From Rhizophagus irregularis (taxonomy: Eukaryota; Glomeromycota; Glomeromycetes; Glomerales; Glomeraceae): a DNA stretch of 64,000 nucleotides. The stretch is taken from the NCBI RefSeq assembly GCF_026210795.1, contig NC_089438.1, positions 3,121,501 through 3,185,500 on the forward strand. Direction: 5' to 3'. Below are positions 6,453 through 9,616 of this stretch, in pieces. The position numbers were made by a program, and so were the translations under genes. Below the pieces are notes generated by a model, which saw only the letters and a program-made list of their open reading frames with translations, ran no database searches and was not told the origin of the DNA. How positions within the stretch are numbered: the stretch's first letter is position 1; every line of letters begins with the position of its first letter.

Positions 6453-7653
6453 TTAATTTTGCAAGCTTAAATTGTTCTCAGATTCGACATTGTTTGATAT
6501 AGTAATATCAGAACATATTGCTAAACTCTTATTTATATCTATAGTTTCTTCATTCAATTTTAGGATTGCTTTTGGTTTTTCTAATAAAACGTCTTTTTCA
6601 TTAACGTAGTCAAAGTTTGTATCATTTTGTTTAGGAGAAATTATAGCTTTAAGAGTAGAAACGATATCTTGCATATCTGGACGTTTATTTGGTTCATTTT
6701 CCCAACATTCTAATCAAATAGAATATAATTTTAACGTTAATTAAAACAATAATTAAATAATAGAATTAATTATTATTACCTGTATATAATTTACTATATT
6801 CAGCAGGAGTTCCGTCAATAATTTCTTCTCTTTTTCCATCTATTATTGATAAAGCTAGACTTACGTCATAATTATCACCATATGGTTGTTTTCCACTTGA
6901 AATTTGCCACATTAGAACACCGAAACTATATACATCAGACTTTTCATTCAATTTGTAATTTTGCTGACAATTTAACTTTTTTGGATCGACATATGGTATA
7001 GAACCAAACATTTTTGAATTATTACTTGAATTAGAAATCTTTCTTGATAAACCAAAATCTGCCAGTTTTATCTTTTTCTGGTGTATAAATACATTGTCAG
7101 AATGCTATTTTATTTAAATGAAAAGAGTTTATTATAATTAGCTAAAATCAATATTGAAAATCAGAAAATTTAAATCATTACCAAATCACAATGAATAATG
7201 CCACATTTATGTATGCACTCTATCGCGCTTGCTAGTTGGAACGCAAACTGGTATTTATCATCCCATCTGAGGTCATTAAAATGATCACGTAGGTAAGTCC
7301 TTAATGTATCGCTATCAGCATATTCCAAAACAAGTGCGTATTTTTGAATTTTATCTAGTAGATATACATTAAAAAAAATTAATTACTATTCATTAAATAT
7401 GTTTTTTTTTTAAAAAAAAAATTAGAAATATTATATATTATATGCAGATTTACCATCTTTTTTTATCATTGTGATTCCATAAAATCGTAAAATATTTTCA
7501 TGAAAATCCACTCTTTTTTGTAATTTTATCTGTAAAAAATTTAATTAGTAAAAATCAAAAAATATTTTTTAAATTTATATATAAATTTAATACCTCATTA
7601 ACAACTTCTTTTAATGTAGTCTTAACACCTTTGAAACTTTTTAAGGCAAAAAC
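6453..7653 (-). pseudogene. Second kinase domain of the MLKL-like locus, beyond an in-frame stop
   Basis: The reading frame of 7654-9616 continues past the TAA at 7656-7654 through 7653-7594 and four further exons (7529-7454, 7354-7182, 7104-6780, 6709-6453), all with good splice signals. Residue numbers run along the whole locus. The domain starts upstream with GKGSFGSV (524-531). Beyond the stop are the VAIK-type lysine in FALKSF, HCDLHSDN (HRD Arg replaced by Cys), an intact ADFG (659-662), SDVYSFG, and a C-lobe ECWENEPNKRPDM. The family normally reads a non-stop codon at position 541, so this half is lost unless the stop is read through or is a sequence error. The downstream exons show no other damage, so inactivation would be recent. 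Confidence 0.75.
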
Positions 7654-9616
7654 TTAATCGGTATTTTTCCAATAAGCACAGCAGACACTTCCAAATGAAC
7701 CTTTTCCTATCTTTCGTATTATCTCAAATTCTGAATAATCATAATTTGTGATAAATTCTTCGGCAATTGATTTTTCTAACCAATCCGAATAATTACCTAT
7801 TATATTTAAACTAATATTCATCAGTTTTTAGTTAAACTTGTTTTCATTAAATTATTTCCAAAATATACCTGAATCATTAATATTCGCTTTTGCTATTACT
7901 TCTGTAAAAAAAAAAAATTATTATTAAAAAGTTAAATTACTGCCTGCAATTTTTCTTAATTTATATTCTAGTAAAATAGGAATAGTTACTATAAGGTCGA
8001 ATTAAAACTTACTGTCTGGTTGCTGTTTTTGATTCAAAACTTTACCATGATACGAAGAAAGAAGCGATGGTATCCCATAATTTTTATAAAGTTCTTGAAG
8101 CGTTGTAAAAATTTTTGAAAATCCGGGTCTATAACTTGGATCATGCTCAACAGCTAAGATGAAAGAGCGAAAGGGATTTTAGAAAAAACTTTTTAATTTT
8201 AAATATAATAACTAATTATTTTAATATAAATACCTTCTTTTGCAATTTCTTGATATTTTTTTGGCAAACCGTTACCTAAAGAAAATGGTTCCCGATACTT
8301 TTGTCTAACAACAAGGTCGGTAATTTTTAAAATATCATTGTAATTTTCGTATGGAGTTTTTTGTTCAGCAATCTCCCAAAGTAAAATACCAAAACTATAA
8401 ACTTCACATCTAGTAGTATATTTTACTCTTCTTTGTCCTAACATTTCAGGGGCCAAGTAACGAACAGTTTCTTGTATTGCACTTAGTTCCTTCGTTTCCC
8501 GATCAAACGTTCTGCTCGATTTAAAATTTGCAATCTTAGCAATTTCATTAGCAGTGATTAAAATATTTTCCGCTCTTATGTCTCTATGAACAATCTAAAT
8601 AAACAATTGATATATTGAGAATTTATTTGATGGAATAAGATTAAAAATTTGGAATTTATTAATTCACTTACTTTAATGGCTCTTAGGAAATTTAGACCTC
8701 TTGCAATATCAGCAGCAAATCTCAATTTCTTTTTAACATCAAAATCATAGTTATTATAATATTCCTTTAAATTACCAAGTTCAGCCCATTCGGTTATTAG
8801 ATACCATCTTTCTTCATTATAAATTACTCCATAAAATTTTAAAATATTATCACAAACTAGTAATTTTTCCAATATGGAAATTTGATCCTTAACATTATTC
8901 ATAGAACCTTCATTATCCTTTTCATCCGCAATGCATTTAAATCCTACTATCTCCCCATTTTTTTTATTAACACATTTTCTGATCTTATTTCCACGAGCTT
9001 CACTTGTATCCTCGTATTTATTAATATTAGTCATACCTCCTAAAATTTCATCAATATATTTTATAAGGTAATCCATATCTTGTCTTAAAGCATTTTTATC
9101 ATTTTCAGCTTGATTACGTGAATCAACAGTATTAGCAAAATTTAAAGCTGCTGCATTGCTATCAAAATCTCCGCATAATTCTTTAAATTTTTTTTCTATA
9201 CTTTTGACTGGAGCATATTTTATTAACCCTTTTAATTGACCTACTTCTTCAACAAATCTCTTAATTTGGTGAATATTATTTATTAATGTTTGTAATAATA
9301 TCAATTTTTTTTGATTAAAGAAATTTTCATTTTGTTCACTACGAATTTTTAAATTACGTATTGCCGATTCAGCTGCCGATACCCTATCAATTAAAGCACC
9401 ACAGATCCTTTTATTATGTTCTGCTGAATGATATAATTCCATTATTTGATCTAATAAATTAACTACTTCCGTTGTCAATGGAATAAATTTTGAGAATGGT
9501 ACTATTGTATTAGTCACAGTATCAGTATCTTCCAATGCATTTAACGACATTCCTACTCCTTCAAGCATATTTTCTACTACCTTATGTTTGCCATCGTAGT
9601 TCACATTATTTGTCAT
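7654..9616 (-). CDS. MLKL-like protein: four-helix N-terminal domain plus pseudokinase
   Basis: Five exons (9616-8672, 8594-8234, 8153-8013, 7901-7869, 7796-7654) give 540 residues before a TAA. Residues about 30-195 are helical and resemble the MLKL/HeLo-like four-helix domain that in animals and plants permeabilises membranes on activation. Residues about 205-470 are kinase-like but lack a glycine loop. Lys227 (VGFK) and an HRD with Asp320 and Asn325 remain, while DFG is replaced by NFK (338-340), so magnesium binding and catalysis are probably lost, as in MLKL. YLAPEM and CEVYSFG follow. The start ATG lies about 75 bp from a MITE. The end is uncertain: the frame runs on into a second kinase domain behind the stop, so the intact ancestor was probably an 837-residue tandem protein. 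A regulated cell-death role is inferred only from architecture. Confidence 0.75.

Follow-up and report, generated by a model that had tools for sequence, protein, structure and literature searches.

In animals, the kinase RIPK3 phosphorylates the pseudokinase of MLKL and frees its helical bundle, which permeabilises the plasma membrane; the HeLo domains of fungi are relatives of this bundle (PMC12881547, PMC10197012; for these and all other papers, statements refer to the excerpted text). The fungal HeLo proteins reviewed are described either as parts of NLR receptors or as switched by them, in many cases with amyloid templating, and bundle domains (HELL proteins) also occur together with a kinase or pseudokinase domain in one protein (PMC12881547). 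Among early-diverging fungi, MLKL-family proteins are reported only from Glomeromycotina, where they carry Sel1 repeats (PMC8778642). The wheat protein Pm13 has an MLKL-type bundle and a complete kinase in one chain (PMC10951266). Here we analyse a minus-strand locus (9616-6453) in a 64,000-nucleotide stretch of Rhizophagus irregularis DNA (NC_089438.1, positions 3,121,501 to 3,185,500; hereafter the window, in whose positions all window coordinates are given). In this locus, a HeLo/MLKL-like bundle and a pseudokinase are followed, in the same reading frame, by a second kinase domain (K2) that is interrupted by a premature stop. We hold it somewhat probable that the locus is one fused gene whose intact protein is a kinase-switched executioner, and that the window copy is a duplicate being lost.

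A probable single gene of nine exons

Exon 1 (9616-8672) encodes the helical bundle (residues about 45-196), HeLo/MLKL-like by fold, and the N-lobe of the pseudokinase. Exon 2 (8594-8234) encodes the pseudokinase C-lobe, and exon 3 (8153-8013) its end, the point at which a relative on C32 continues with Sel1 repeats. A linker follows, consisting of intron 3 (8012-7902), a 33-nt exon 4 (7901-7869) with a NIND motif common to the window and a copy on C21, and intron 4 (7868-7797). K2 begins in exon 5 (7796-7594), which holds the glycine loop and the premature TAA (7656-7654), continues through exons 6-8 (7529-7454, 7354-7182, and 7104-6780; HCD, DFG, and C-lobe), and ends in exon 9 (6709-6453) with a C-terminal tail and the terminal TAA (6455-6453). 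All eight introns are GT-AG and measure 64-111 nt. After splicing, the frame is 838 codons long and contains two stops, one at codon 541 and one at its end; the two alternative frames have 76 and 121, and base composition predicts about 77. An earlier note, made from the letters of the window, had proposed a single nine-exon frame, and these figures confirm it.

Judged by its sequence, the window locus is one gene, because of the structure of the C21 copy, the absence of an own start in relatives of K2, and the comparison with the Sel1-bearing C32 relative. The C21 copy (within 3763250-3766600) has the same nine exons in the same phases and 894 codons without stop or frameshift, and both linker introns align between the two copies. 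In its single frame, a degenerate kinase domain is followed by a complete one; in the window, the stop cuts the complete domain. The C21 copy is whole across K2, but its 5′ end differs from that of the window. Four in-frame TAA codons in an AT-rich repeat precede its open frame, whose first methionine is codon 10, about 22 residues late and still ahead of the first helix of the bundle. A spliced alignment placed an intron in the C21 brace, and an intron plus a frameshift in C32; both are artefacts, as the frames are open there.

The second kinase and its relatives

Window K2 carries the motifs GKGSFG, FALK, HCD (in place of HRD), and DFG. Its nearest PDB chains belong mostly to the TKL group, with RIPK4 and RAF among the matches. 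From 47 matches, we examined the K2-type kinases of the window, C21, L041-L046, L048-L050, L052, and L057-L059. Among the first eight DNA matches are six relatives on C10, besides C21. Four of these K2 domains (L041-L044) lie behind another kinase, L046 is a frameshifted remnant of the same tandem arrangement, and L045 has K2 behind a different N-terminal stretch. Most of the closest K2 relatives on C10 are not free-standing. In a permissive test, the C-lobe of the upstream kinase can be spliced in frame into K2 in three of the four tandem loci, the exception being L042, which is rearranged upstream. No start codon precedes K2 in C21 or in the five tandem or remnant loci, whereas one precedes the K2-type kinase in each of the six genes in which that kinase stands first. 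In L045 the start codon lies further upstream of K2, and L041 has a methionine within the kinase's own conserved start.

Some features of the C10 loci are recorded for themselves. L041-L044 keep kinase motifs in both domains. L042 has extra coding-like sequence between its two kinases, with what we take to be a P-loop-like motif. Upstream of 4554 (minus strand), L045 has an N-terminal cysteine motif in frame with K2, which presumably resembles a Zn(II)2Cys6 cluster.

In a rival reading, the locus holds two adjacent genes: a HeLo-pseudokinase gene cut short just behind exon 3, and a kinase gene with its own start. Two details of the window speak for this: unspliced intron 3 runs at once into a stop (8004-8002, frame ...QPDSKF), and intron 4 contains an in-frame ATG (7821-7819), missed in the earlier note, that could serve as a separate start of K2. 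However, neither the C21 copy nor the tandem relatives have such an ATG, the linker exon and introns are common to the window and C21, and the TAA would cut a separate K2 anyway. As a principal reading, two adjacent genes are rejected for the missing start before K2 in C21 and the five tandem or remnant loci; for the window locus itself we consider them very improbable.

By comparison with its relatives, the locus consists of the front of an MLKL-like gene (bundle, brace, and pseudokinase) and of the second, C-terminal kinase from a tandem-kinase gene, whose linker intron connects the two. Intron 3, at the breakpoint, is alignable with its C21 counterpart, and intron 4 resembles by eye the intron preceding K2 in the tandem-kinase loci. 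Behind the pseudokinase, neither the window nor C21 has Sel1 repeats; both have the linker introns and K2. Since the C32 relative of the front half has Sel1 repeats at this place, the fusion swapped the Sel1 part for the second domain of a tandem kinase. The K2 tree does not fix how window and C21 branch within the K2 clade (support 92/93), and the front-half tree does not fix how window, C21, and C32 branch, so a single origin of the fusion rests on the common linker exon and introns.

Bundle, brace, and pseudokinase

By fold, the window copy contains the four-helix executioner bundle of MLKL. In a Foldseek search, MLKL chains fill the top three rows (E 0.33-0.58, probability 0.91-0.99), with no match under E 0.001 from Foldseek alone, and identity to animal and plant MLKL chains in the fold alignments is 11-17%. 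The Pfam family MLKL_N scores 15.5 bits in the window, 19.9 in C21, and 22.2 in C32, all under the curated cut-off of 27, which is passed by the exons of three C29 fusions (below). Across the family, 27 of 32 members match MLKL_N at E up to 0.1. Alignment A1 (32 rows) comprises the 30 best of 137 bundle matches, minus the stop-interrupted L037 and plus the three C29 fusions, with the window, C32, and C21 rows entered as longer fetched versions. A profile of the exon-1 alignment retrieved ordinary kinases and no MLKL entry among the best 60 of 411 PDB matches; as these kinases align to the N-lobe part of the profile, the search is uninformative on the bundle.

The brace helix is present at residues 166-196. 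Behind this first brace helix, 44 residues found in C21 and C32 are absent, so the window brace between bundle and pseudokinase is incomplete. The first kinase domain matches Pkinase, keeps HRD, lacks a glycine loop, and has NFK in place of DFG; Pkinase or PK_Tyr_Ser-Thr matches occur in exons of both halves of the locus. Thus the order described in the earlier note (a bundle, a kinase-like domain with NFK and no glycine loop, and a second kinase) is borne out by the motifs, its MLKL-like character is supported by fold, Pfam family, and kinase motifs, and the comparison with MLKL that the note had called for gives a match over the bundle.

Fusions in the opposite order

Three genes on C29 (within 1419700-1422900, 1425300-1428500, and 1444000-1447200) encode a kinase, an MLKL-type bundle, and a pseudokinase, in this order, and in all three the junction of kinase and bundle lies inside one uninterrupted exon. 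As these genes hold the modules in reverse order, gene structure indicates that kinase and executioner were joined on two or more occasions, with the kinase behind the executioner in one case and ahead of it in the other. The covalent joining of an executioner to an apparently active kinase, suggested for the window in the earlier note, is thus supported by the phases of C21, the K2 domains without an own start, and the single-exon joins of C29.

The bundle family is very large, with at least 137 matches at 121 merged places. In a survey by coordinates, a K2-like kinase lies on the same strand downstream of the bundle in at least two of the 121 places (1.9 and 2.0 kb) and upstream in at least four (0.3-0.8 kb). 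Of the remaining listed pairs, one involves the second L052 bundle (2.2 kb), and five are neighbours 3.7-4.8 kb away. These counts are lower bounds, because 150 of 3034 kinase candidates were scored (one place was added by hand) and other kinds of kinase would be missed.

Many bundle matches lie on contigs C15, C29, C1, and C20. L052 on C29 (about 7870-2700, minus strand) has, behind its kinase-bundle-pseudokinase gene, another bundle-pseudokinase unit whose bundle is interrupted by a stop, close enough for a former five-module protein. Elsewhere, bundle matches lie side by side in frames of equal length (four of 761 codons, three of 610, and three of 479; C1:400912-402660, minus strand; C20:2087398-2088651, plus strand; C1:5192739-5193950, plus strand). 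From these equal-length adjacent frames, some proteins seem to hold arrays of HeLo bundles.

The family bears on the main rival to an executioner, in which a fused protein is expressed whose bundle serves as an adaptor that targets the kinase to membranes or oligomerises it for signalling, and executes no death. The size of the family would fit signalling scaffolds, as would the Sel1 repeats of the C32 relative and of Glomeromycotina generally (PMC8778642). A further point for an adaptor is that neither copy with a C-terminal kinase retains both the N-terminus and the whole brace. Against an adaptor, the fold and the Pfam family are those of MLKL, and the pseudokinase follows the bundle as in MLKL. 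We regard the adaptor as rather unlikely.

State of the window copy

The premature TAA replaces a codon that is sense in C21 and the tandem copies. The earlier note had placed it four codons before the lysine of K2; the TAA is as described, and the distance is right within one, the lysine being the fifth codon after it (V-F-A-L-K). In the bundle-pseudokinase part, the window branch is the longest in its group (0.29, versus 0.078 and 0.043 for C21 and C32). In a codon model of this front half, omega is 0.34 on the window branch and 0.19 elsewhere, with a borderline gain (twice the log-likelihood difference, 3.7), and omega = 1 is rejected on the window branch (21.1). For K2, the values are 0.32 and 0.25, with no difference (gain 0.5), and omega = 1 is again rejected (11.5); this model uses five of eight rows, L044 and L045 being left out, and L046 for its frameshift.

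Purifying selection thus maintained window K2 over most of the interval that followed the duplication, which makes the stop probably a recent lesion. With a stop in K2, 44 brace residues absent, and a faster-evolving front half, the window copy is in all probability a duplicate that was damaged recently. If the message survives, the product would be bundle, pseudokinase, and a stub of K2; as four exon junctions lie behind the stop, the message may undergo nonsense-mediated decay. The earlier note had further suggested that the stop may have uncoupled executioner and kinase. A useful uncoupling is not supported, as K2 is cut before its lysine, the 44 residues are absent, and the front branch is the longest.

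An assembly error at the TAA, or read-through of it, would leave the gene intact in life and would agree with the 296 K2 codons behind it, which contain no further stop or frameshift and evolved under constraint. However, the TAA is a substitution, not a homopolymer indel, in an assembly of 32 long contigs, and the long front-half branch and the absent brace segment are as expected under weaker constraint. We consider an intact window gene very improbable.

Discussion

In an intact fusion acting as a kinase-switched executioner, the TKL-type kinase would sit beside the pseudokinase and phosphorylate it in cis, or in trans within an oligomer, doing the job of RIPK3 on an attached substrate. The pseudokinase would then free the bundle by way of the brace, and the bundle may insert into the membrane and kill the hyphal compartment; cis activation and membrane killing are proposed here by analogy with MLKL. 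A fused activator would need another brake, such as a regulated kinase or a bound partner. In the window copy, the TAA would remove the catalytic kinase from a duplicate that is probably being lost.

That two domains have fused repeatedly is classically taken as a sign that they act together. Two independent joinings, if true, would suggest kinase control of HeLo/MLKL executioners in fungi too, and the three-module genes of C29 are natural material for a direct test of it. More tentatively, these proteins could be single-chain "necrosomes", in which a TKL kinase and an executioner with its pseudokinase were joined twice or more, with the kinase once at the C-terminus and once at the N-terminus, the window copy being naturally disarmed. 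If true, the death switch would be loaded in cis and would need a restraint from elsewhere.

No fusion of the three modules, whichever the order, is named among the best-ranked literature matches (open-licence papers; the best 6-20 of up to 7,072 per search). Like the proteins described here, animal MLKL has, by fold, a four-helix bundle, a brace helix, and a pseudokinase, and RIPK3 parallels the TKL-like kinase; the animal pair are two proteins, whereas kinase and executioner share one chain here, and the window brace is incomplete. The Glomeromycotina MLKL/Sel1 proteins and fungal HELL proteins share the bundle and kinase-like core, and C32 the Sel1 repeats, but the excerpts of these papers describe no additional kinase that is apparently active (PMC8778642, PMC12881547). 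The plant tandem kinase-pseudokinase Yr15 likewise has kinase and pseudokinase in one chain, in a plant lineage and, in the excerpted text, with no mention of a HeLo bundle (PMC6170490). In wheat Pm13, a brace links an MLKL-type bundle to a kinase whose key residues are all present, in one chain as here, but this is its sole kinase domain and a pseudokinase is absent, whereas the R. irregularis genes have both, in two orders (PMC10951266).
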